From Panorpa germanica (taxonomy: Eukaryota; Arthropoda; Insecta; Mecoptera; Panorpidae): DNA of 64,000 nt. Made by a program: the position numbers and the translations under genes. How positions within the stretch are numbered: the first letter of the stretch is position 1; every line of letters begins with the position of its first letter. The notes beneath the pieces were generated by a model. It was given only the letters and a program-made list of their open reading frames with translations, searched no databases and was not told the DNA's origin. Shown in pieces: positions 9,538-43,848 of the stretch. The stretch lies in assembly GCA_963678705.1 (NCBI GenBank), contig OY783208.1, positions 20,362,207 to 20,426,206 on the forward strand, read 5' to 3'.

Positions 9538-9640
9538 CTAGCTTTTACCCCGTCGCAAAGCGACGTTTGTTTAATATATATTGTTTGAATTTCATAAAGT
9601 AATACGTAATTTAATTTCAAATTTTTCATATTAAAATTAG
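9538..9640 (-). mobile_element. Helitron 3' terminus, family B
   Basis: CTAG at 9538-9541 followed by CTTTTACCCCGTCGCAAAGC on the plus strand: a second 3' end with stem CGTCGC-AAA-GCGACG. It abuts the previous copy head to tail. Homology fades after about 100 bases. Confidence 0.55.
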
Positions 9641-10119
9641 AAAAACACTGTCGCTATTTCTTAGATATCATACTCGTACATGAAATAAATAAATATTTTA
9701 AAATGAAAATGTTGTATTTCATCTTATAATATGATTTACTACTTTAAAATTTCTTATTGGAACAAATATTCTACAGGATTTACTTATTATATCATATCAA
9801 AAAAAAATTAAAATTCTAGTTTTATAATAATTTTTAAATGTTTCATAATTAAATTTAAATATTTCTGTTAAATATATTAAATATAGATTTATATACATCG
9901 TCTTCATTTTTCGTACACTTTAATATACATAATTAAAATTATTTCTTCATTAACCAGTAAACTGTATTCTTTGTATTTTTCATGTTGTTATCATTCTTGT
10001 TGTTTCTTCATAAACGTATAGCTATTAACGCACTGTCGTTTCAGATTGTCATGCCTTAATCGGTGTGGATATAACATCTTCTGTGATAGTAGGACAGTAG
10101 TCTTCTGTGATGGCGGTTA

Positions 10120-10405
10120 TTATCTCATTTCTATTCCAGGGTTAGCATTTAAATAGTAGCACTTTATTATTCCCCTCCTAAAAGAAGCATTCTTAATAAA
10201 TAAATAAAGAAAATATACTGAATGCAAAACAAATAAATTATGCACTTACAGTTTGTACATGTGATGAACAGCACTAATATCTGCTTCATTGAATTGTTTA
10301 TCAGAATAATAGACAATGAATTTCCCGTAAGCCGGGTCTTTGTTGTATTTTATAAATATACACGATCAACTAAAATCTTCTTATTGCCACGGCCCTTTTT
10401 TCGCT
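10120..10405 (-). CDS. possible last two exons of an unrecognised gene
   Basis: On the minus strand an exon at 10250-10405 follows a TTTACAG acceptor and ends at CT|GTAAGTG. It reads DPAYGKFIVYYSDKQFNEAD and on to HHMYKL. In the matching phase a second exon (10120-10177, after TTTTAG) adds RGIIKCYYLNANPGIEMR and a stop. The composition is protein-like and the splice phases agree. However, the 5' half of the first exon (RKKGRGNKKILVDRVY) is in another frame, so there is a one-base shift near 10350. It may be a pseudogene, or the exon may start later than I think. Family not recognised; no upstream exon found. Confidence 0.35.
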
Positions 10406-10499
10406 CTGTAAATTACAATAACATTAATTTACATCGTACTTGCATGATCGTCTTAAACAACATGAAGAATATATTGTATTTATTTTTAATAAAAGGATA

Positions 10500-11397
10500 A
10501 TATAGAATAGTAATAATATTTGTAGTAGTTATTTCACAAAAATTAAACACAAAAATAATGTTTTGCAACATCAAAAGCATTAATTCATTTGTTTAAAAAT
10601 CTATTTAAAAAGCATAATACCTGAGAATGTTATGTTATTTTAAAGAATCTCAGCATAATGATATGATTGTATCATCATGCTGATATATATAATTGTGTCG
10701 TAAAGGTATTTTAGGTTACTTTTTAACGTATTTTAGACAAATGATTCTTTATACACTTCTTAGTTGCAAAGACCTAAAAACTTAATATGTACTATATTAA
10801 TATTAATATTTAATGTTAATTATTTGTAATAGCAATATTCGTATTAATAATTAATAATATGAAAGCATATATTATAATTTAAAAAGGAAATATTCTTTTT
10901 AGTTAATTTATCTGCAAACGTTGTAATAAAAATACTGATCTGGTAACAGTTATTACACATTAGACTACACTTAAAAATGTATTACGATTATTGATTTGTA
11001 AATAAGAGTATTTTTCTAAACGTTATCAAATAAATCATGCGACAACACCAGCGAGCAGGTAAAGAATATGAAACAAACTTTTAAAATATATTATTCATAT
11101 GATAATGTAGCATGCATGTAGTTATGTAGAAGTTATTTCAATATGAATATGACTGAATTTTATAAATTTGAAACTTCGTTGTCGGGAGAGGAGAGGACCA
11201 ACACAGGATTATAAAAAGGAAAGAATTCATAAAAGGATATGTGGTAATCTGAAAACAAATAAAATGCCAATAACATACAATATAATATATATAACACTTA
11301 CATCTAAAAGTAAATAATAAAGTAATAATAAGTACTTAAATAATAAATCTCAATTATACCTATCTAAAAGCAATTAAATAATAATCTCACTCTCCCG
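10500..11397. other. AT-rich stretch, no gene seen
   Basis: No coding signal or recognisable repeat. It lies next to the satellite array and could hold the 3' end of the large Helitron, but I could not find a hairpin-CTRR terminus. Confidence 0.3.
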
Positions 11398-13225
11398 ATC
11401 AGAGTATTTGTTTAACAAATGACTGCTAAAAGAAAAATACGGAAAGAGAATTTAAAATTTAAGAACACTACTATTTGGCTTGAAAACAATGAAATATAAA
11501 ACTATTACTTTTAAAACACGAAAAGCAGGTAAAATGGCAAAGAGTACATCACTTCGTACACACAATATAATATATAACACTTTCATCTAAGGGTAAATAA
11601 TAAAATAAAAATGAGAACTCAAATAATAAATCTCAATTATACCTATCTAAAAGCAATCAAATGATAATCTCACTCTCCCGACCAGAGTATTTGTTTAACA
11701 AATGAAAGCCAATAGAAAAATACGTAAAGAGAATCTAAAATTTAAGAGTAAATAATAAAATAATAAGAAGAACTTAAATAATAAATCTCAATTATACCTA
11801 TCTAAAAGCAATCAAATGTTAATCTCACTCTCCCGACCAGAGTATTTGTTTAACAAATGAAAGCCAATAGAAAAATACGTAAAGAGAATTTAAAATTTAA
11901 GAGTAAATAATAAAATAATAATAAGAACTTAAATAATAAATCTCAATAATACCTATCTAAAAGCAATCAAATGATAATCTCACTCTCCCGACCAGAGTAT
12001 TTGTTTAACAAATGAAAGCCAATAGAAAAATACGTAAAGAGAATCTCAAATTTAAGAGTAAATAATAATATAATAATAAGAACTTAAATAATAAATCTCA
12101 ATTATACCTATCTAAAAGCAATCAAATGATAATCTCACTCTCCCGACCAGAGTATTTGTTTAACAAATGAAAGCCAATAGAAAAATACGTAAAGAGAATC
12201 TAAAATTTAAGAGTAAATAATAAAATAATAATAAGAACTTAAATAATAAATCTCAATTATACCTATCTAAAAGCAATCAAATGTTAATCTCACTCTCCCG
12301 ACCAGAGTATTTGTTTAACAAATGAAAGCCAATAGAAAAATACGTAAAGAGAATTTAAAATTTAAGAGTAAATAATAAAATAATAATAAGAACTTAAATA
12401 ATAAATCTCAATAATACCTATCTAAAAGCAATCAAATGATAATCTCACTCTCCCGACCAGAGTATTTGTTTAACAAATGAAAGCCAATAGAAAAATACGT
12501 AAAGAGAATCTCAAATTTAAGAGTAAATAATAATATAATAATAAGAACTTAAATAATAAATCTCAATTATACCTATCTAAAAGCAATCAAATGATAATCT
12601 CACTCTCCCGACCAGAGTATTTGTTTAACAAATGAAAGCCAATAGAAAAATACATAAGAGAATCTAAAATTTAAGAGTAAATAATAAAATAATAATAAGA
12701 ACTTAAATAATAAATCTCAATTATACCTATCTAAAAGCAATCAAATGATAATCTCACTCTCCCGACCAGAGTATTTGTTTAACAAATGAAAGCCAATAGA
12801 AAAATACGTAAAGAGAATCTAAAATTTAAAGCACTATTTGGGTTAAAAGTGATAAAATAAAACGTCATTACTTATAAAACACGGAAAACAGGTGAAATCG
12901 CAAAGATTAAATAATTTCGAACCGTAAAAACGATGAAAGGTTTTTAAGGTTAATAGTTTAATTAAGTAAAAATTATTGTGAACTATATAATAAAAAAAAA
13001 AATGAGAACTTAAAAAATAAATCTCAATTATATCTATCTAGAAGCAATTAAATGATAATCTCACTCTCCCGATTAGAGTATTTGTTTAACAAATGACTGC
13101 TAAAAGAAAAATACGTAAAGAGAATTTAAAATTTAAGGACACTATTACTTGACTTGAACATGATGAAAGATTATATTATTACTTATAAAACACGAATAGC
13201 AGATGAAATAGCAAAAAGTAAATAG
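11398..13225. repeat. 155-bp tandem repeat array with 465-bp higher-order period
   Basis: The word GACCAGAGTATTTG recurs at 11680, 11835, 11990, 12145, 12300, 12455, 12610 and 12764, an almost invariant 155-bp step. More diverged units sit at 11398 and 13072. Each unit contains the palindrome TTTGTTTAACAAA. Three unit types alternate (A: GAATCTAAAA with ATGTTAAT; B: GAATTTAAAA with CTCAATAATA; C: GAATCTCAAA with ATAATATAAT) in the order A-B-C-A-B-C-A, so the true recent unit is a 465-bp trimer. The outer units carry extra sequence (AAAACACG...GCAGGTAAAATGGC) and are about 283-307 bp long, probably the ancestral form. The array begins just 3' of the helicase end of the large Helitron. Confidence 0.9.
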
Positions 13226-13246
13226 TTTCGAATAATTTGGAGGTAT

Positions 13247-16200
13247 CTATTCTAATAGAAGTACATTTTTATAAACTACGTTAGATGTAAATATATCTTT
13301 CTTTGATTTAGCAACAGAAGTTAATGTTTCAATTTTTAAGTTATTGGATGATTTAACCCTTGAAAACGCGACTATAATTGGCCATAGGTAAAAACTGGTT
13401 CCCGTAATAAAACACCTACTGTTTCAAAAGTTTGACCTTGTGATTTATTTATTGTCATAGCAAATGCTAATCGAACAGGAAACTGAACTCTTTTAAGTAT
13501 AAATGGAAGATTTATATCAGAAGGAGCTAAAACTATTTTAGGAATAAGAGCGCGATCACCAGTGTGACTTCCAGTAATTATTTCTGCATCTATTACAGAT
13601 GTATAGATATGTTTTACAATTAAACGGGTTCCATTGCAAAGTCCACTATTAGCATTCATATTTCTTAAAAGCATTATGATTGCACCTATTTTAAAATTTA
13701 ATTTATGTGGAGGCATACCCGATGGTGTCAAACTATTTAAAAATTCTACTGGGAAATGATTTTGTTCTGTATCAGAATCAGTTGAAACAGAGTCATGACT
13801 TAAAGAGCAAATTTGTTCCCCATCCAATAAATTTAAAATTTTTTCATTAATCTGTAATGTGTCTTCATTTAATGGACATAAAATTACGCGAGATTTTAAT
13901 TCATCAAGAGTAACTAAATTAATATCGCCGTATATTTCATCGACTAAAGGTTTGGCGGAAATGAATTTATTTGGAATTTTAACCATGTTTACTACACTAC
14001 CTGGACAATCATTAATTAGTCCATCTCCAAGTTGTAATAACCACGTTTTAAAATCGATTTCTTCTTGCGCAACTCTCATGTTAATTGTCAGATGCTTAAT
14101 TTTGAAAAGTGACCATAACCTGCTATTTTGAATACACGTTGAAACTATATCTGCAACCGTTCCGCGTTTAACAACAGGAAGACATTGTCGAAAATCTCCT
14201 CCTAGTAAAATGATTTTATTACCAAATGGCTTATTATTTTTCATTAAATCGCGAAGGCACATATCTACTACATCTAAAGCAAAGTAAGGCGCCATTGTAA
14301 CCTCGTCCCATATAATTAACTTAGCTGACTTTAATAATTTCCCATCAATAGAGTTGTGCCTTATGGATGAAGTTGAATTTATATCTAGGGGAACCGGTAA
14401 TTTAAACTGTGAATGAATTGTCCTCCCCGCTTTCAGTAAAGTCGCAGCTATCCCTGTCCAAGCCACAGGTATAGCAGTTAATCCCATTCCACGTACGACG
14501 TGTAGTAAAGCAGTATAAAGAAATGTTTTCCCAGAACCACCCGACCCATGAATAAAGAAATATCTTTGCTCTTCATTATCATTGTTTATGCAAAGCATTA
14601 TTTCATCAAATACGTTTTTCTGTTCCGAATTTAATTGATTACTAAAATTAACCCCTTGCTCAAATTCTTCTGTTTGGTTAAATGTTTCCCTAACTAAAAC
14701 TAAATTTACATTACGATATTCCAGAAATCCAAAGTCAGTATAATTAAAATTATGTAATTTAAAAATATCAATGATGTCATTGATAGCTAACTGTTCCGCA
14801 GTTTCTTGGTTATAAGTTAAACTATAATCCTCGCATAAAGTTACTTTATGATTATCCCATAATAAATTAGGATTGCAGGGTTCGCAAAAAATACAAATAA
14901 AAGCAAATAGCTGTCGTAGCTGTTTGGGCATTTTACAAATTGAAGCATCATCTAAACAACGATCCCATTGAGTAGAATCATTCAATAAACCTAATTGTTT
15001 TGCTGTTTCGTGGAAAGTGGAATATTCGATTCCATTGAGAGTTCGCAAGTCTTTGAAACATGTAGCGCCGCGTACATGAAGCAACAATAACCTTAAATAA
15101 AACCTTTCACCTTCTTTAGGACTAACACTATACATTCTCGGAATTATCAAATGACTTATGCGCTGTCTTAAAGTCCATGTCTTTTTGCGATCAAAAATGT
15201 AATGTTCGGGTATTTCCGTATACAAATAAGTTTTAGCCTCTACCGATGTTGAATTTAATTTAAACCAAGCCGTTAATGTAGTTTCTGAAGACTTTGCTAA
15301 TGCAGATTCTTCATTTCCTTCAGTAAATAAAATATTTTGTTGGTTTTCTAAATGAACTGCTAACCTATATATAGTGTGTGTTTTATATTGCAGATCGAAT
15401 GCAAATATTCTCCACATGGCTTCCGGTGGTGATACATATCGCGCGTCTAAATAAAATGAAACTTCATCCCAGTCTAATTGTGCTTGTCCTTCAGATGTTA
15501 TTTTAACATTGGCACAATCATGGCCCTTATATATATATTTAAATAAATATTTTACGCTTTTAACCGAAGCGCAAATTTCAACATTAATGTGGCATCTATA
15601 TTTCAAGGAAAGGAATCTATTGTACGGTACAACCCATCTATTATCTACTGTATGTTTTATAGTGCCTTTTGCCGTGTAAAAATCAATTTTTGAATTATTA
15701 TCCCGACGTCTGTACAAAGGATACCCGTTACTGTTATTTACAGTGGAAGCTTGAAATGATTTCGGAAAATCTTTACTGCATTTATTGTCTTTCATGCATG
15801 GAGCATTTAAATTATATGGTACACATGGACCGTGAATCATACATTTCTTGACCACATCAAATAAAATGGGATGAGTTTCACTATCTGGAATTTCTGCAGA
15901 TACAACTTTATCAATAAGTTCCGTGTTTCGAATTTTATTTTGATTATTTAAAATTATTAGAATGTGAATGTGAGGTAAACCACGTTTTTGAAATTCAATA
16001 ACAGAAACGATAGCTGTTACCTTACCGAAAATATGTCTTTTCAATAGATCGTCAAAGAGTTCTTTCACTTTTAATTGAAATACTCTAACAACTAAATCGG
16101 GACGATTTTCGGTTCGTTGATTATTAAGTAAATTACTTTTAATTTCTGGCCACTCGGGATTACATGTCATTGTAATAAACAAATCCGGTGAACCATATTT

Positions 16201-17526
16201 ACAAATAATTCCCATAGCATCAAGATAATGTTGTGACATGCTACGTGGACTTCCGACAAATGTACTTGGTAAAATAACCATTCTGCCAGGTATAATTCCT
16301 TCATTAATGGATTTATTTTTGACGTAATCCATCAACCCTTTATACATTTCTGACCGCAATTTCTTTTGTGTATTTGCGTTCCGAATGAAATTAAGTCTAT
16401 TACCTTCAATTTTGGAATACGCCTCAACAATATACTGTTGAGTAAGTTTTCCGGCACTAAGAAATGGATTGAAAGAGCCCGTGCATCTAAGTTTATAAGA
16501 ATAAAATTGCCGATGAGAAATTCTTCTTTCTAATGATACATTTAGTAAATGTTCCGAATGACCGAGTTCACCGGTTGGACATAACAGCGGATAAGTCATT
16601 GGATCGCAATTTTCGTTTAGAATATTAATGTTGCGGAGATTACTATCTTTTTGATAGACACAAATGTCTCTATCAGAAGGTGGTAATCCATCTTTGCTTG
16701 TAAAAATTAAAGCTACTTCATTAGTAGACGGCACGTTGTATCGCCGTGGATCTTTTGTGAGCTGCTGAACAATATTCATCTGCACATCAAAAGGGTTTCT
16801 ACCTTCTAAATTAGCTTTTGCAATCTCCTCTCTTTCTACTTCAGCCATCATTTTATATGCAGCAGCGTATGGATTTACTTTTCTTATTAAAGAATCCAAT
16901 TGCTCAAATAGTTGTCTCTTGCATTTACGGTTAATATCGCCTTGCATTCTCATCAGGATCTAGAATATACAGCTGACCATATTGTGGCTGTTTTCCTTCT
17001 GTAGGGTGTGCCGATGATATTCTATGGTAAACCTGACCACATATCCTGAAACAGTACGGCCCACGTGTGCCTGGACGGTGATCAATATGTGCTCCCAATG
17101 AAGCAAATGCAAGCGAACTATTGTAATTTCTGATGTTATCCATAAAATTGGCAGAAAGGGGATGCATATTAGTCATTAATTCCATTAACAGCTCTGGAAA
17201 ATGGTTAGAAGAGTTCGGAATTGAAACTTTGCCTTTTGAACAGCATAATGAAAATTTCCCATCTGTTGGCTTCTCATTTTTGAAATGAGTTGCTTGGCAA
17301 AATTGACAGATAACGTTCATAAATCCACAGTTATGTTGTATTACAAGTACTTCATCGTCTATTTCTTGAAGGGATGTGCTGAATGTTTGTTGCGATATGG
17401 ATGGTGCAATATTTTGCGTTTCCTTTTCTCTTTGTGTTTCAAGTTCTAACGCTTTATCTAATTTGCTTTGCTTTTGCAAGGCTATATTATTTAATCTATT
17501 GCGCTTTGCCTCTTCTTTTTCACTGG
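13247..17526 (-). pseudogene. Helitron Rep nuclease and Pif1-type helicase
   Basis: After a frame change in the A-rich tract, a zinc-binding N-terminal region (17479-16931: C-x2-C-x4-H near CQFCQATH, then YILDPDE) leads by another one-base shift into a 1193-codon frame (16953-13372). The Rep domain has the HUH motif GLPHIHILII (about 15961-15995) and the two-tyrosine motif YLFKYIYKG (about 15522-15556) used for rolling-circle nicking and joining. The helicase has Walker A GSGGSGKT (about 14523-14552), Walker B IIWDE and the late motif INKSQGQTFE. At 13374 one base is lost from the GQLYVAFSRV region, making a premature TAG. The old frame then resumes and ends at a stop at 13247-13249. The element is therefore nearly full-length but dead. 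Not a host Pif1, because Rep is fused upstream. Confidence 0.9.
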
Positions 17527-20361
17527 CTAACCTAATTCTTTTGCGAAATAATATTTTTTTTTTCTTCTTTTTTTTTCTTTTGTACTTTCCTGTAACAATC
17601 GCTTTTTGTTTATTAAATTCTGCTTCTTTAGACGAACTTGTTTTGCGTGTCTTGTTTCCAAAATAATTCTCTTCTTAAAATCTGCTTTCAGTTTCTCTAG
17701 TCTTGTTCTTCTTTTGTCAGGCGTTTCTCTTTTGAATCTTTTAGTATCTCTCACCGCCTGTTCCTTTAAGCGAATTTGTTTTAATTCATTCGTTTCCTTA
17801 TTTAATTTCTTCTTAAAATCTGCTTTCAATTTCTCTAGTCTTGTTCTTCTTTTGTCAGGCGTCTCTCTTCTGAATCTCTTGCTATCTCTCACCGCCTGTT
17901 CCTTTAAGCGAATTTGTTTTAATTCATTCGTTTCCTTATTTAATTTCTTCTTTAAATCTGCTTTCTTTTTCTCTAGTGTTGTTCTTCTTTTGTCAGGCGT
18001 TTCTCTTCTGAATCTCTTGCTATCTCTCACCGCCTGTTCCTTTAAGCGAATTTGTTTTAATTCATTCGTTTCCTTATTTAATTTCTTCTTAAAATCTGCT
18101 TTCAATTTCTCTAGTCTTGTTCTTCTTTTGTCAGGCGTCTCTCTTCTGAATCTCTTGCTATCTCTCACCGCCTGTTCCTTTAAGCGAATTTGTTTTAATT
18201 CATTCGTTTCCTTATTTAATTTCTTCTTAAAATCTGCTTTCAATTTCTCTAGTCTTGTTCTTCTTTTGTCAGGCGTCTCTCTTCTGAATCTCTTGCTATC
18301 TCTCACCGCCTGTTCCTTTAAGCGAATTTGTTTTAATTCATTCGTTTCCTTATTTAATTTCTTCTTAAAATCTGCTTTCTTTTTCTCTAGTCTTGTTCTT
18401 CTTTTGTCGAGCGTTTCTATTCGAAATCTGTTGCTATCTCTCAACGCCTGTTCTTTTAAACGAATTTGTTTTAACTCACTTGTTTCGCTGTCTTATTTCT
18501 TTTCAAAATATGTCTTCAGTTCTTTTAATCTTTTTTGCCTTTCATCTTTAGTTTCTTTACTGAAATTATCCCTATTTCTTAAAATCTGTTTTTGTAAGCG
18601 TTTATTTTTGTCTTCATCACCTTGAGACTCCAATATTGTTTTCCTTCGTACACATTCGGCTTGTTTCGCCTTTTTTAAGAGCCTTTCACTTACTCTTGTT
18701 TTTAATATAGTACATCCTCCTTGGTTTTCTTCTATTGACAATACTGTATCACTAACTTTTTCTAATTTATTTAACTGCACATTATAATCACTTACTAAAA
18801 TATCACATGCTACATTATCACATATTACACCATCACTATTTATATTGGCACTTATTTCACTAATTTCACTGGTAAACTTTGAGTAAGAATATTCACAAAT
18901 TTCTGAAATATTAATATTACCTGTAATACTTGTTATGGTAATTGGGTTAATTGTAAATAATAAAGAACCCGCAGAATTCTGAAAATTGTATTTAATCAAG
19001 TCGACTAAATCAGTTACATATTTATAACACAAAAGTACTGCTTTGCCATTAGAATTTGAAGTAGATTGTCCCTTTAAACCCCTTGAGTGGGAATCAAAGA
19101 TCCAAAAAAGACTGTTATGTGTAAAGATTGCAAATGTTTGACTGCAAGTAGTGAATAGCCCGTTGTTGTATTTTTTAAAATATTTTTCTAAAAAGTCTCA
19201 TGTTAATATATTAAGATTACCTTGTGCAGTGTTCATAAGATCATGACTAATTTTACATGTACCGTTACCAATCGATATAATTGGATTAATCTCTTCGATC
19301 AGTAAAAATGGGTGACAACCGGTTTTTAAATTTTTTCGATAACAATTGTCTCCTAGTATTAAAATATAATCTAATATGTGAGTGGTCCAGTTATTTAATG
19401 CAATTAATGCATGTATACATATACTGAATGTAGCTATTGCCGTACATTGAGAATTTTTCGGAAAATTTGTAAAAATATCACTTGCTTGATTAAAATTAGC
19501 TTGCACTATATTATAAGGTTCAGGCAATTTGAATTCAGTTACACCTAATTCAGAGACATTAAGATTTGGAGAACTATAAATGGAAGTTGTCACGATTTCC
19601 TCAATGTTTACAGAGTTTGCAGAATTATTTATTTCTGTTAAAGTAGTATTGTCCATAGTGCTTAATATACTAACAGGAACAATAGAAAATTGAGTGTTTT
19701 CACAGTTACTAAAATTAAATTTAATCAAGTTTATGACATCTAGAAGGTCATTAAAACATAAAAGAACGGATTTTCCATTTTTTTCACAAACAATTTGTCC
19801 TTTAATACCTCTTGGATGTGAATCGAACACCCAAAATAAGTCAGATTCTTTAAAAATAACAAAAGTCTCATTACTAATTGTAAATAGTCCTTTTTCATGT
19901 TCTACGAAAAATGATTCTAGAAATGAAATTGTTAATTCATTAATACCTGCCTTTGCATTTATAATGTCACCACACAGAGTTTTTGATTTGTCACAATATA
20001 CGACGTATGTGTGACCTTTTACGGAGATGTTTTGTTTGAGTTTATCAACTAATAACAAATCGTGTTGATTACCTACAAAATTATCTAAGTAACATCGATC
20101 TCCTAATTTTAAAATATCATTTAAAGTCTCTGAATGCCACGTATTTAATGCAGTAGTTTCGTTTACACATATTGCGACAAAGCAATTGAAAGTACACGGC
20201 TTACCAAGGGACCTATCACAAAATCTTTTGTCAAATTGACTGAAACTACCTCTTACAATTGATAATGGCTTCTTTAGTTCATTTGCATTAGTTCTTAAAT
20301 TCCTAATATTAACAGAAGACACATATCGTTTCCTTCCAAATCCGAATAAAGATTTAGACAA
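17527..20361 (-). pseudogene. Helitron protein N-terminal part: two deubiquitinase-like domains plus basic repeat coiled coil
   Basis: One reading frame, broken only by TGA at 19198 and TAA at 18493, covers about 945 codons. Residues 38-220 and 288-460 are two copies of one domain. Each has a Cys after a Gly/Ser-rich turn (GKPCTFNC, Cys56, codon 20194-20196; SQCTAIATF, Cys306, codon 19444-19446), a conserved ILxLGDxCY segment, and later FDSHxRG supplying Asp and His (19822-19824 and 19816-19818; second copy Asp at 19093-19095). Cys plus D-x-H matches the catalytic layout of the herpesvirus tegument (UL36-type, peptidase C76) deubiquitinases, so a ubiquitin-cleaving role is inferred. Then comes a Lys/Arg/Glu-rich coiled coil with six near-identical units. 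There is no ATG at the 5' side; the first in-frame Met is residue 236, so the true start is missing or on another exon. Confidence 0.7.
17650..18480 (-). repeat. 138-bp coding tandem repeats in the Helitron ORF
   Basis: Six units of about 138 bp encode a 46-residue unit (RDSKRFRRETPDKRRTRLEK, then a KLNKETNELKQIRLKEQA part). Central units are almost identical in DNA, so they expanded recently by unequal exchange or slippage. The stop TAA at 18493 replaces a TTA leucine codon of the repeat, a single-base nonsense change. The opposite strand is also open over the array simply because of its composition. Confidence 0.85.
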
Positions 20362-20807
20362 ATTGAAGAAACAAATAAATATGTTATATATAAAATAAAA
20401 TTTAAAAGTATTAACTAAACTATTATTAGATATAGGTAATGAATAAAGATTAAATAAAAGAAATAAGCAAATATTTTAATATAATATACTTAGCTCCTTA
20501 AAAGATCTCTGGAATGTAACATACGCCACAGAAAAATATGTCCTCACGTATATTGTAATATATACTTATATAAACATATGTCCAATGGAGTGATTTAAAT
20601 TCTTATTTTCCTAAAATTAAAAAAAACAATACGATAATTAAAAATATATATGACTACGTTAATCTATAACATAAAGGTAAATGATTATGGAAACTAAAAT
20701 ATTTTGTGGAAACTAAAGTAACATGCAAGAACATAAGTTTATTTAAAATGTGAATAATAAATGTGAAACATGAATAATAAAACATGCACTGTAAACAGAA
20801 TGGATTG
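20362..20807. other. flank of the Helitron, no gene seen
   Basis: AT-rich; the Helitron frame remains open upstream to about 20480 but without an ATG. It may contain the element's 5' terminus, which I could not recognise. Confidence 0.3.
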
Positions 20808-21032
20808 AAAACATGCTTTAGACGCCTTTTTCTTACGCTAGGGCTGCACTGCGGAAAAGAATGCTCCAGAAATAATAACAATAAAAATATAAATTATTTC
20901 CGCCTACTTTTAAATTTGAATTTAAATGTACCATATATACATTTGTATGATTCAAGTGATGGATATAATTCTGTACTATTCTTTTTCGCAGTGTAGCTTT
21001 AGCATAAGAAAGAGGTGTCTAAAGCATTATTT
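20808..21032. repeat. long inverted repeat (foldback/MITE-like)
   Basis: Arms of about 55 bases at 20808-20862 and 20978-21032 are imperfect reverse complements (ATGCTTTAGACGCC against GGTGTCTAAAGCAT, and GCACTGCGGAAAAGAAT against ATTCTTTTTCGCAGTG). The spacer is about 115 bases. It is probably a small foldback transposon. A structured transcript is the alternative. Confidence 0.75.
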
Positions 21033-23265
21033 CGACGAATATTTTTACAATGTAGAATATAAAACATTTATAAATAAATAAAATTAACAAACCAGTAATA
21101 AAAATTATACTCGTCTTAGCTCAAAATTAATATAGCAGCAATATATAATAAGTATAATGTGTATCATTCAAGAATCTGAAACAAATAAAAGAATTTCATT
21201 TTTCTAAAAGCAAAATTAGCCTCATGTAATTTTTACTGAAGGTATTAAATATGTTATGAATATCGAAAACAGATTACAAATCATTTTAGTTATGTAATGA
21301 CAGGTGTAATTATGCAATGTCAAACAGATTTGGTAAAACTGCTGTCTGAATGACTTGTCTGTCTTTGATTTGAATTTTACATTTTCGTTTCAATACTGAA
21401 ACATGTATAATTTCCAGCCATATGACATGTAAACTGGAGTTCTGACTGAATCATTTCTGCAATGCTTAAAATGGTAAGCAGTCAAATTTAGATCTCAATC
21501 AATAACAGAGATGTATGTTTGGCCAATATCGATATCAATTAACTAATATCAGTAGAAGCTAAAAGTGTTAAACATCAATACTGAACTGTTAACTTTAACA
21601 ACTACCAAACCATACTAAAATAGTCCTTTTCTGTTTGAACCATAGACTAAATATGTTAGAATTAAAATAATTTTTAATAACATTGGTAATAAGCCTTTCA
21701 AAAATGTGGAAGTTTTGACATTTGCCTTTTTGCATCGAGCCACAGATAAAAAAAATATGAAAGATTGAATTAATTTAGAATAAAATACAGAAATAGATTA
21801 GATTAATAACTGTAAGTTATTAATAACTTACCTTTACTAAATATATCACGGGCCACTTTACTTTGACAGCAAGGGAAACACAATATATGTCTCAATACCT
21901 GAAAAACATAGTATAATTATTAAACCATATTTTAAATAAGTTGCATTGTTAATTAAAGCATTTTGTTATCATCAGTAAATAATGTAAATATTTGAAAGTT
22001 TCACTTTTAGCACAGTTAAATTTTATCTATTAGCGAGTAACAAAAGTTATATTTTAAGTACTGTCATAGTAATTGTTATTTACTACAGAACATTTTACAC
22101 TATTAATATGTTTCTATATTTGGTACGGAAATATAACATTTTTATTTACTATTGAAATATTTCTAAACTAATACTCATGAATCGTGTAATATTACATAGA
22201 ATGTCAGACAATTACTACTATCGTTAAAAAAGGTTTACACAACTCATATTGTAACAACATATTGTAGAAATATAAATGCAAATATAAAATAAGATTATAG
22301 AAAACTTACCTTATATCAATTAAAACGTAATATAAATCAATATGTATAGATTTATTACATAAAGAAATTATTATTAACCACTTAAGAAAACAATTAATAT
22401 TTATAACTTTATGCAAAAAATATAATAATCTGTAGTAACTCAACCAACTGCACTGACTTTAACAGACTGAAGATATTCACTTTATTTATTTGTATCTATT
22501 CCCTCCAAAATATTTGCAAAGAATGCAACATAAAAAAAACGAAACCAACGTTTCCCGCTATTAACAAATACAATACACACAGTACACAGTACAGGGAGCC
22601 AACATGAAAAATATAAAACACATTGCAGTAGAGCATTAGTAAACAATTACCATACATTCAACCAGTTAAACTTATACATGTATGGCAAACATATATATTG
22701 TATATTACAATACAGATCCATATGCATATGCACCGTCACACCGAGTATATAAATGTTTACAGGAATCTAGCCCCAAAGTTTTTATATCAATAAACTGTTA
22801 ATATGTGTTCATTTGTTTACATTTAAAAAAAAAATCTTTTAAAATTTAGAATAATTACGTTGTGTAAACATTTTAAATAGTGACGTTCTTTAAATAGTTG
22901 GGTTCTTAAGCCTGTCGCAGTACGAAACCGTATTTAAGCGACGGCGAATTCCGACGTAAATCAGCGGGTTGGATGAGCGGCTACTATTCTCAAAGCAAAC
23001 CGACTCTGTGTGTTATAACACATACATACCCCGTACCGATATGACAGTACTCCCAGCAACTTGTGTACTGTAGGGGGTGTATTGGAGTTGTTTTACACTA
23101 ATATAATTTATCATGAGAGTAAACTTTTACTTTAATTTTTATCGATACACCATTGGTATTAAAGAGACTTTAGCATTTTTTATATATCTGAGTTCTGCTT
23201 GGCGTGAATTTTAATTGTATTACGATTTATTGTATTTTTGTGGTGGTATGTCGTTACAGTTACAG
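21033..23265. other. intergenic, no gene seen
   Basis: Long AT-rich stretch with one less AT-rich block at 22910-23090. No exon with protein-like composition was found on either strand. The block could be a promoter or 5' UTR, but there is nothing to attach it to. Confidence 0.35.
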
Positions 23266-23269
23266 TACA

Positions 23270-24092
23270 CAAGTGTGTGGTTTTTATTTCATGTCAAAAT
23301 TTAATTCCCTTTTTAAATTGAAATATTCAAATCGTTTTATATAAATTCTACATATAAAAACAAATAATTTTTCATACAAACTGACTAAAAAAATATATTT
23401 TTTTTATCAAAATAAAAAATATTTTCAATTTATGCGTTATTTGACCAACTTTTTTTCAAAATTTGGGATTTTTTTTTTCGATTCGTAAATAAGTTACCAA
23501 GGTTAGCCTATATACAAAATTTCAACTTTCTAGCACAATTTTTACTCTCGAAAAATACTGCCCCCGTGCCCCCAAATAAAATTTTGAAATTTTGAATTTT
23601 TTTTTGTTAATAATATACTTAATTATTCTAGAATTCGGAATATGAACTTTCTCCAAAGTTCCCTACCGAGCCCCCAAATTTCTTCAACCCCCCCCCTTTT
23701 ACAATTTTTGAATTTCTAATTTTTGAAAAATGTCAGCATTAAACACCCTAACACACATGCAAATTTTCAGCTTTCTATCTCTTACCAACTCAAAGTTATA
23801 CAGCAAAAAGTGCAAATTTTTTTTACCAGTTTTTCCAAAATTACGGGTTTCCAGGAAATTCAGGGAAAAATCCGAGGACGCCAAAAGTCTTAGAATTTTT
23901 TTCTCTACGAAATAGGAAATTTTCAAAAAGATCGTGGGAGCCGTTTTCGCGCTGCCATACAAAATTCAGTACCAAACATATAAGAACATAAGAATATAAG
24001 ATCATAAGAATATAAGATCATAAGAATATAAACAAACAGTTGGAACATTATAATATAGGATAAACATACAGTTGGAACATTATAATATAGGA
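23270..24092 (-). mobile_element. non-autonomous Helitron, family B, 3' truncated
   Basis: Same family as 7906-8824. The interior matches over about 700 bases, and the 5' terminus on the minus strand (from 24092) begins TCCTATATTATAATG. The terminal block with CAGTTGGAACATTATAATAT is present twice (24037-24060 and 24069-24092). The hairpin-CTAG 3' end is missing at the 23270 side. Confidence 0.65.
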
Positions 24093-24389
24093 TTATAATT
24101 ATAAATATTAATTACACTTATTAATATAATTTAGATTCTATATAGGCAATAATTAGATTAATAAATAATTATTAATAAACACAATAAAATGTGTTTAAAC
24201 ATTTATTTAACATTAATTTTAATATTTTTACACATTTTAATTTGTTGTTAAATTGCCTAAGTAAAACTTTCAAAATTTATTTGTATATTTATGCATAATA
24301 CAAATAATATATAATTTTTCTAAGAGTTAAACGCCACGTATGTAAGAAGTAAGCGATTATTAAAAAAAAATGTTATGCAACAATGTCAT

Positions 24390-24597: not shown

Positions 24598-25692
24598 TTA
24601 CTCATGTCTTAATTTATGTCGTTTTAAACTATTTGAACTAGAGAACGATTTCACACAAAGACTACAAGAAAAAGGTTTCACTTCTAAATGACAATTTTTA
24701 TGCTGGTTCAAACTATTCAATCGAGAAAATGATTTATGACAAATTTTACAATTAAAAGGTTTCTCTTCTAAATGACCAATTTTATGTTGATTTAAATAAT
24801 TCAATCGAGAAAATGATTTACTACAGATGTTACAAGGAAACGGTTTAATATCTAAATGATTATTCGTGTGTTGTTTCAATGAGCTAGAATAAGCAAATGA
24901 CTTATTACAGATAGCACAAGAAAATGGCCTAACTTCTAAATGACTGTTTTTATGACTTTTTAATTGATCTGATGTTGCAAAAGTTTTTAAACAAGAATTA
25001 CAGGGGAACGGTCTCACATTCAAATGAATATTTTTATGTTTTTTTAAATGACTTGAGCTTATAAACGATTTTTTACAAATGTCACATGGAAACGGTTTAA
25101 CCTCTAAATGGATAATCTTATGATACTTTAATTGACTTGAAAAAGTAAATGTTTTATTACATTCATTACAAGCAAACGATTTGGAATGACATCTTTTATG
25201 GATTACTAAATTCTTTTTTTTCTTATAAGATTTATCACATGTATTACAAGGGTATAATGTCGTTTCTGAGTGAACATGCAAATGTTTTAGGAGTTCAGAT
25301 TTTATATTAAATGACATGCAACAAATTTCACACAGATAATTCTTTTGAATAGAATTTAATTGTTCTAATTCAAATGTTGTACTATCTTGCGATTCAACAA
25401 TACATTTTGTATTACCAACATTTTCTATTGATTTATTTGGTCTTTCACAAATTTCTTTACACTTAGTCGATGTTTCCAAAACAACATATGAATTATTATC
25501 AGGTTCATCTTCAATGTAATTACCTGACAAACTTATTGTTTCATCCGACTGACAATCATAGATTTCTACTTTAATTTCTGTTTCTAATTTAACAGATATT
25601 TCTTCTTTAATAATGTCTTCCTTATCTTCTATTTGCATGGGCTCATTTTGTGCAACTTCAATTTTTATTTGCGGTGACTCTTCTTCAGTCAT
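24598..25692 (-). CDS. C2H2 zinc-finger protein, nine fingers
   Basis: A 364-residue open frame from ATG at 25692 to TGA at 24598. Residues 1-115 are acidic with repeated SUMO-type motifs (DIIKEE, IKVE). From about residue 120 to the end, nine C2H2 fingers follow each other every 27-28 residues (first CEICCMSF, last CSLCVKSF...HKLRH). Linkers are HLEVKPF-like rather than TGEKP, so they form a lineage-specific set. A TTTTAG acceptor sits about 25 bases before the ATG, implying a spliced 5' UTR as in the gene at 2.5 kb. The product is presumably a nuclear DNA-binding protein; targets unknown. The frame is intact, so it is likely functional. The 3' UTR starts inside a transposon end. Confidence 0.87.
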   Translation of the reverse strand: MTEEESPQIKIEVAQNEPMQIEDKEDIIKEEISVKLETEIKVEIYDCQSDETISLSGNYIEDEPDNNSYVVLETSTKCKEICERPNKSIENVGNTKCIVESQDSTTFELEQLNSIQKNYLCEICCMSFNIKSELLKHLHVHSETTLYPCNTCDKSYKKKKNLVIHKRCHSKSFACNECNKTFTFSSQLKYHKIIHLEVKPFPCDICKKSFISSSHLKKHKNIHLNVRPFPCNSCLKTFATSDQLKSHKNSHLEVRPFSCAICNKSFAYSSSLKQHTNNHLDIKPFPCNICSKSFSRLNYLNQHKIGHLEEKPFNCKICHKSFSRLNSLNQHKNCHLEVKPFSCSLCVKSFSSSNSLKRHKLRHE

Positions 25693-25929
25693 TTTAATAT
25701 AGTAATTAAACTAAAATCAAGAACATGTGGAATATTGTAGACATATTTAATGAATAACTGGCTGTCTTTATAGTTTGGACACTTTTCAATAAAACGTTTC
25801 ATTGAGTTACAGAAAAGTTCGGAGAAAGAAGAATCTATATTATATACAGTAACTACCTAAACCTTACAGCAAGGCACAATTTTGTATAAAATAATGAAAG
25901 TTTATCTTCAGAGTTGTTTAATAATAGAA

Positions 25930-26344: not shown

Positions 26345-43848
<17,504 letters not shown>

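Follow-up and report, generated by a model that had tools for sequence, protein, structure and literature searches.

Identification of the locus and its layout

A reading frame upstream of a Rep-helicase in the genome of Panorpa germanica appears to encode two tandem domains resembling tegument-type deubiquitinases, and this raises the question of whether these domains belong to the transposon, whether they are likely to be active enzymes, and what they could contribute to transposition. The stretch of DNA analyzed here, referred to as the window, is 64,000 nucleotides of contig OY783208.1, and the genome searched with it comprises 464 Mb in 249 contigs. Read 5' to 3' on the minus strand, the locus encodes two candidate viral tegument-like deubiquitinase (VTD) domains, VTD1 and VTD2, followed by an STPR array, a Cys-rich linker, and the Rep-helicase (Rep-Hel) (Table 1). 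The element to which they belong is 14.5 kb in size and thus reaches far beyond the interval of 17527-20361 on which the earlier note had focused.

Table 1. Features of the Helitron copy in the window (window coordinates)
Feature	Position	Strand	Remarks
Whole Helitron copy	9538..24060	minus	14,523 bases; 5'-TCCTATATTATAATG...GCGACGGGGTAAAAGCTAG-3'; between A and T
5' terminal TC	24059..24060	minus
First predicted VTD region, from lost start codon	19567..20361	minus	Catalytic domain ~19642-20277; Gln, Cys, Asp-x-His
Second predicted VTD region	18745..19566	minus	Catalytic domain ~18892-19539; in-frame TGA at 19198-19200
STPR array	17664..18486	minus	138-base units (46 aa = 2 x 23), ~6 copies; TRF; Pfam PF21107 E 1.4e-27
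Basic linker and Cys-rich segment ahead of Rep	16931..17674	minus	Frame shifted in window copy; in frame with Rep in relatives
Rep (PF14214, residues 161-335) and PIF1 helicase (PF05970, residues 775-984)	13372..16959	minus
155-base minisatellite	11588..12829		8 units, 97% matches; 3' noncoding part of Helitron
3' terminal hairpin CGTCGC-TTT-GCGACG	9551..9565	minus	Exact match
3' terminal CTAG	9538..9541	minus

The frame first reported at 17527-20361 is not open. It begins at a TTG where the start codon has been lost, and in-frame stops interrupt it at 19198-19200 (within the second VTD), 18493-18495, and 17527-17529. Two changes of frame, near 17.6 and 16.95 kb, precede Rep-Hel, and the end of the helicase is lost to a stop near 13372, relatives being longer. 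Because of these stops and frameshifts, the lost start, and the clipped helicase end, the window copy cannot make the complete protein, and it is a dead member of a canonical Helitron family. The decay that the earlier note described holds for this copy but not for the family, as open-frame copies of 2,171-2,416 aa exist. Furthermore, not all of the reported interval encodes deubiquitinase-like sequence, the part at 17664-18486 being the STPR array with its period of 138 bases.

The size of the family became apparent when the 425-residue frame covering VTD1 and half of VTD2 was used as a genome query, which gave at least 101 matches at 55-100% identity with 99 of the 344 candidates scored. In 13 fetched copies, picked mostly for long frames, a single open frame spans the VTDs, STPR, Rep, and helicase, and the same frame end, VVYKNVLLLE, is found in 12 of these, L045 stopping before the end of the helicase. 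No frame of at least 90 aa lies 5' of the main frame in the window copy, and an unassigned one of 114 aa is present there in another copy (C20; L031/L032).

The STPR array is likewise a feature of the family. PF21107 is matched in two other copies (E 2.3e-24 and 1.6e-15), and between 3 and 7 units of 46 aa are detected per copy with a loose pattern. Among arthropod Helitron proteins that lack annotation, arrays of this type appear to be common. Open-access full texts gave no report of a Helitron paired with STPR, and for STPR repeats in transposons more widely they gave one paper, on plant WHIRLY proteins.

Assignment of the tandem domains

The two domain copies that had been noted upstream of the Rep-helicase are present in the minus-strand frame and are 38% identical over 211 aa (E 7e-48, from a single comparison with VTD2 read through its stop), a likeness well above what chance would give. 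When the 425-residue frame was compared with all PDB chains, the sole match at E values up to 10 was 8ADD (E 8.5e-8, residues 70-271), in which the second VTD of the zebrafish Helitron DrT1 was solved by crystallography, DrT1 having two active VTD domains (PMC9741609). A joint profile of 15 domains (nine first and six second copies) matched 8ADD only, at E 1.5e-14, and a profile built from nine second copies matched it at 1.6e-7; the 12 other PDB hits of this second-copy profile, 11 to VPS29 and one to titin, have E values of 0.03 or worse and look like chance.

The Pfam family Herpes_teg_N (PF04843) was reported at E ≤ 1 for 4 of the 15 domains (best 2.4e-4), with unrelated families also surfacing at weaker E values, and Pfam scans of the window copy's own VTDs did not name the family, VTD1 being without any Pfam match. 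The NCBIfam search returned no families, the PF04843 family search gave no matches in this genome and likewise none in 14 control genomes, which makes it uninformative, and the joint VTD alignment confirmed no relative among viral_contigs (52 pattern stretches) or genome_contigs (147 stretches). AlphaFold reached a pLDDT of 32.7 for the window tandem as a single sequence and 41.1 for VTD1 with VTD2 as the sole other row, both models being too poor to assess the fold; with the latter, Foldseek returned 555 matches at E ≤ 10, none of them at E ≤ 0.001.

Considering the matches to 8ADD, both tandem domains are, by sequence homology, VTD domains, which agrees with the tegument-type cysteine deubiquitinase family proposed in the earlier note. 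Their identity to DrT1-VTD2 is 23-30%, and VTD1 and VTD2 are more alike (39%). This closer likeness hints at a separate duplication, in a comparison that is unrooted and has DrT1-VTD2 as its sole outside VTD.

Conservation of catalytic residues and selection

Mutation has established the catalytic Cys, Asp, and His of DrT1-VTD2 (PMC9741609), and these align with the Cys and Asp-x-His of VTD1 and VTD2, whose columns also align with each other. All 15 rows of the smaller alignment have the Cys, the Asp, and a Gln upstream of the Cys, and 14 have the His. A larger alignment of 37 rows, drawn from the ~101 matches, represents 35 distinct places (L029 is L043, and L019 is L050) and is biased toward close relatives by the 30 rows that are the best-scoring of the 101; here VTD1 keeps the complete C-D-H triad in 34 of 37 rows, or 32 of 35 places, and VTD2 keeps it in 36 of 37 rows, or 34 of 35 places. 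The residue preceding the catalytic Cys is Gln in 36 rows and Pro in one, and the GKPC motif read earlier from the window copy is therefore present in it, but with a Pro that is peculiar to that copy.

Other positions weigh against the proposed activity. The site aligned with DrT1 Glu377 is Glu in all 37 rows of VTD2, whereas in VTD1 it is Lys in 30 rows, Glu in 6, and a stop in 1; in DrT1-VTD2, the E377A mutation strongly reduces activity (PMC9741609). The stretch aligned with the ubiquitin-binding loop required by DrT1-VTD2 is gapped, and it is even shorter in VTD2. As this loop region is gapped and shortened, ubiquitin recognition may differ, and the differences at the Glu377 site and in the loop make it conceivable that VTD1 and VTD2 differ from each other in substrates or strength.

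Over 13 copies (78 pairs), Rep and the helicase have median dN/dS values of 0.11 and 0.14, compared with 0.25 in VTD2, 0.26 in the STPR region, and 0.42 in VTD1, these being simple Nei-Gojobori counts for pairs with dS > 0.02, with an uncertain alignment for STPR and a selection of copies for open frames that favors low values. VTD1 and VTD2 both look constrained, VTD1 least. From the sequence comparison, we infer that both domains would have deubiquitinase activity.

The conservation of the triad also bears on whether the VTDs could instead be binding modules that hold ubiquitin or a partner and have no enzyme activity, in the manner of the insect inactive VTDs (iVTDs), several of which are likewise found within one protein (PMC9741609). 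The Lys at the Glu377 site in most VTD1 rows and the shortened loop of VTD2 could be accommodated by such a role. The iVTDs, however, are described as being without one or more catalytic residues (PMC9741609), whereas the triad is kept here at nearly all distinct places and across lineages with VTD synonymous divergence of up to ~0.3-0.6, and we regard a binding role of this kind as unlikely.

Proposed function of the polyprotein

The family encodes a canonical Helitron polyprotein, arranged VTD1-VTD2-STPR-Cys-rich-Rep-helicase and still open elsewhere in the genome, and we consider it probable that its VTDs strip ubiquitin to keep the transposase undegraded. The STPR array would direct the protein to the nucleus, deliver it to DNA, and hold it there; the STPR of FMBP-1 is known to bind DNA and to contribute to nuclear localization (PMC4821344). 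Rep-Hel would nick at the TC/CTAG ends and peel off a strand, while VTD1 and VTD2 would remove ubiquitin, by analogy in K48-type chains, from the transposase or from nearby chromatin or replication proteins. Removal of ubiquitin could then spare the transposase from degradation during its work. Here we infer ubiquitin removal by both domains after the example of DrT1 and herpesviral VTDs, for which cleavage of K48, K63, and K11 linkages is described (PMC9741609), and Erven et al. have proposed that Helitron VTDs prevent the degradation of proteins required for transposition (PMC9741609).

It could also be speculated that protease-type domains at the N-terminus of one long polyprotein serve its maturation and cut it into deubiquitinase, STPR, and Rep-Hel pieces, much as cleavage of the Rep, Hel, and endonuclease subunits has been suggested for the OTU proteases of Helentrons (PMC4067079). 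As the VTD proteins characterized in PMC9741609 cleave ubiquitin, such self-processing appears quite improbable.

Element class

Canonical Helitrons are defined by TC/CTRR ends, an A-T target site, and a palindrome close to the 3' end, published as 16-20 nt in length and ~11 bp from that end, and Helentrons are defined by an AP endonuclease and by a HUH motif with S in place of L ahead of its P (PMC4067079). At the 5' end of the family described here, the boundary A|TC falls at the identical aligned base in all four copies compared. The terminal sequence of the window copy is repeated once further upstream as a 32-base unit, and an alternative element start at 24092 is possible because this repeat lies 32 bases upstream of 24060. 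At the 3' end, the 15-nt hairpin (CGTCGCTTTGCGACG) stops 13 nt short of the terminus and is slightly under the published length; it has three matches in the window at up to 2 mismatches, where 0.01 are expected and none of 100 shuffles reached three. The eight copies that reach the 3' end (the remaining fetched stretches end before it) all have this hairpin, followed by GGGTAAAAG and CTAG|T. The 27-base 3' end pattern occurs at 133 places in the genome at up to 2 mismatches, not all of which need be full elements, and the reversed-pattern control gave none.

The protein features point the same way. The L031 and L048 frames contain the Rep motifs EFQKRGLPHIH and YLFKYIYK and the helicase motif GSGGSGKT, and the HUH region accordingly reads RGLPHIH, with L and not the Helentron-type S between G and P. 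Both PF14214 (Rep) and PF05970 (PIF1 helicase) are found in the window and in the L031 and L048 frames, and in the latter two neither endonuclease, OTU, nor RPA gave a Pfam match at E ≤ 0.1. Residues 9-1195 of the 1195-residue Rep-Hel align with Helraiser (7lcc, 1207 bits), and in three copies (window; C20, L031/L032; C2, L041/L042) the sequence 3' of the main frame contains no further frame of 90 aa or more. By every feature tested, the family is a canonical Helitron, an assignment made because of the TC/CTAG ends, A-T target, hairpin, RGLPHIH motif, and the fact that no AP endonuclease was found.

Helitrons with recognizable VTDs are said to carry an AP endonuclease and to belong to the Helentron subclass (PMC9741609), and a Phytophthora proto-Helentron without endonuclease and with a CTAG end is known (PMC4067079), both of which would favor a Helentron that has lost its endonuclease. 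With TC/CTAG ends, an A-T target, a 3' hairpin, the Helitron-type L in RGLPHIH (PMC4067079), and a Rep-Hel alignable with Helraiser over nearly its whole length, a Helentron identity was rejected, and loss of an endonuclease from a Helentron seems very improbable. The VTD-bearing canonical Helitron is, as such, an exception to the Helentron placement given in PMC9741609.

Several further features were observed around the element. Repeats related to the 155-base minisatellite occupy the equivalent position in other Helitron copies. Short tandem repeats of the 5' terminal sequence are present at some insertions (window 24028-24093; L054 443-520), Helitron flanks often contain other Helitron-like ends (GCGACGGGGGTAAACTCTAG), and the L043/L044/L054 copy is flanked on its 5' side by a Helitron-like end at which the terminal sequence is repeated. 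The repeated termini and Helitron-like flank ends suggest that elements have inserted into AT-rich ATAAGAATATAAG tracts in a nested or head-to-tail fashion. Another copy of the 15-base hairpin, with one mismatch, is located at window 29850-29864 and may mark the terminus of a non-autonomous relative. Just upstream of the Helitron 5' end, a minus-strand frame of 370 aa (window 24598-25710) contains several C2H2-like zinc fingers as judged by eye.

Mosaic structure of the family

Beyond the 13 copies in which VTDs and Rep share one open frame, a VTD match lies upstream and on the same strand in 39 of 39 scored Rep-Hel matches (the 39 closest of 2413 candidates, with match tables compared side by side and not by script), so that the suggestion of a host gene merely adjoining the Helitron is scarcely credible and was rejected. 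The domains belong to the Helitron, as the earlier note had proposed, and not to the separate neighboring gene that it had considered.

Across these 39 matches, Rep-Hel identity is 96-100% and upstream VTD identity 69-100%. The same disparity is seen in median dS among the 13 copies (0.26 for VTD1, 0.50 for VTD2, 0.06 for Rep, and 0.10 for the helicase) and between lineages, where VTDs differ by ~8-25% and Rep-Hel by 0-6%. Segment comparisons were made for L031, L035, L043, L045, L048, L049, L050, and window 13372-20475. L043 and L031 differ at 7/999 sites in the 5' flank, 104/790 in VTD1, 137/791 in VTD2, and 21/2020 in Rep, and the window copy and L048 differ at 161/790 sites in VTD1 and at 2/700 and 4/709 in the helicase halves. 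In the triplet L043/L031/L045, informative sites favor L031 by 122:1 in the 5' flank but run 32:63 in VTD1 (Fisher p 2e-29), and L049 sides with L048 in VTD1 (147:9) and with L045 in VTD2 (46:94; p 5e-31), the p-values being descriptive because the triplets were chosen after the distance tables had been inspected. VTD2 is undecided in the first triplet (59:56), and for this reason L045 is not regarded as the donor of the L043 VTD2. Segment trees for the 5' flank, VTD1, VTD2, and the helicase halves conflict likewise. The contrasts between segments are too large for a single shared history, and the copies are recombinants.

It is tempting to view the two VTDs and the STPR array as an exchangeable front module, in which one recent Rep-Hel core has recombined onto several VTD-STPR modules that are old and divergent, with VTD1 and VTD2 also reshuffled against one another; antagonistic pressure from host ubiquitin ligases could then be possible, and the module would be the host-interaction part of the element. 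We put this forward tentatively and consider it somewhat doubtful. Breakpoints also occur outside the front, with L035 and L050 changing sides within the helicase, and noncoding sequence diverges as well, a third of the 5' flank differing between L031 and both L048 and L049. Because of this noncoding divergence and the helicase breakpoints, the apparent module swap may in part reflect a young 3' half joined to old 5' halves, within a family that recombines along its whole length.

Comparison with known systems

A tandem pair of this kind in one transposon polyprotein had been thought little described, an expectation that does not stand. The zebrafish DrT1 pair is published (PMC9741609), for which reason a claim to the first tandem pair was rejected, and VTD Helitrons in insects were described by Erven et al. 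in 2022 (PMC9741609). Tandem transposon VTDs, insect Helitron VTDs, and their likely role are thus already in print, and what is new relative to the portions of PMC9741609 used here is the setting in a canonical Helitron that lacks AP endonuclease, together with its STPR array and the exchange of segments between copies. Another paper that appeared to link Helitrons to deubiquitination, PMC12910113, has no bearing on the family. Tegument-type deubiquitinases are thereby extended from Helentrons to a canonical Helitron, and with VTDs in an element of this class, deubiquitination may be a general need of rolling-circle transposons. As one genome offers a large family with many open-frame copies, the need for either deubiquitinase becomes testable genetically and the shuffling of their modules between copies traceable.

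Of the systems to which the family can be compared, Helraiser (7LCC), a bat Helitron, has a homologous Rep-Hel that is matched by window-frame residues 9-1195; the match begins at Helraiser residue 254, and the alignment includes neither VTD nor STPR. The silkworm protein FMBP-1 shares the 23-residue STPR repeats but is a transcription factor with four repeats and no Rep-Hel (PMC4821344). Helentrons with OTU cysteine proteases (PMC4067079, PMC6431247) are similar in being rolling-circle elements with an accessory protease of deubiquitinase type and are different in carrying OTU, Helentron ends, and an endonuclease. Inactive VTD proteins of insects, among them Drosophila CG32436, resemble the family in their insect origin and multiple VTD copies, but are described as lying outside transposons and being without catalytic residues (PMC9741609). 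DrT1 (PMC9741609; 8ADD) likewise has two VTDs in one transposon polyprotein and the catalytic Cys and Asp-x-His. The VTD elements of PMC9741609 are, however, placed among the Helentrons and have an AP endonuclease at the C-terminus, which was not found in the window family, and the latter instead combines its VTDs with canonical Helitron ends and an STPR array.
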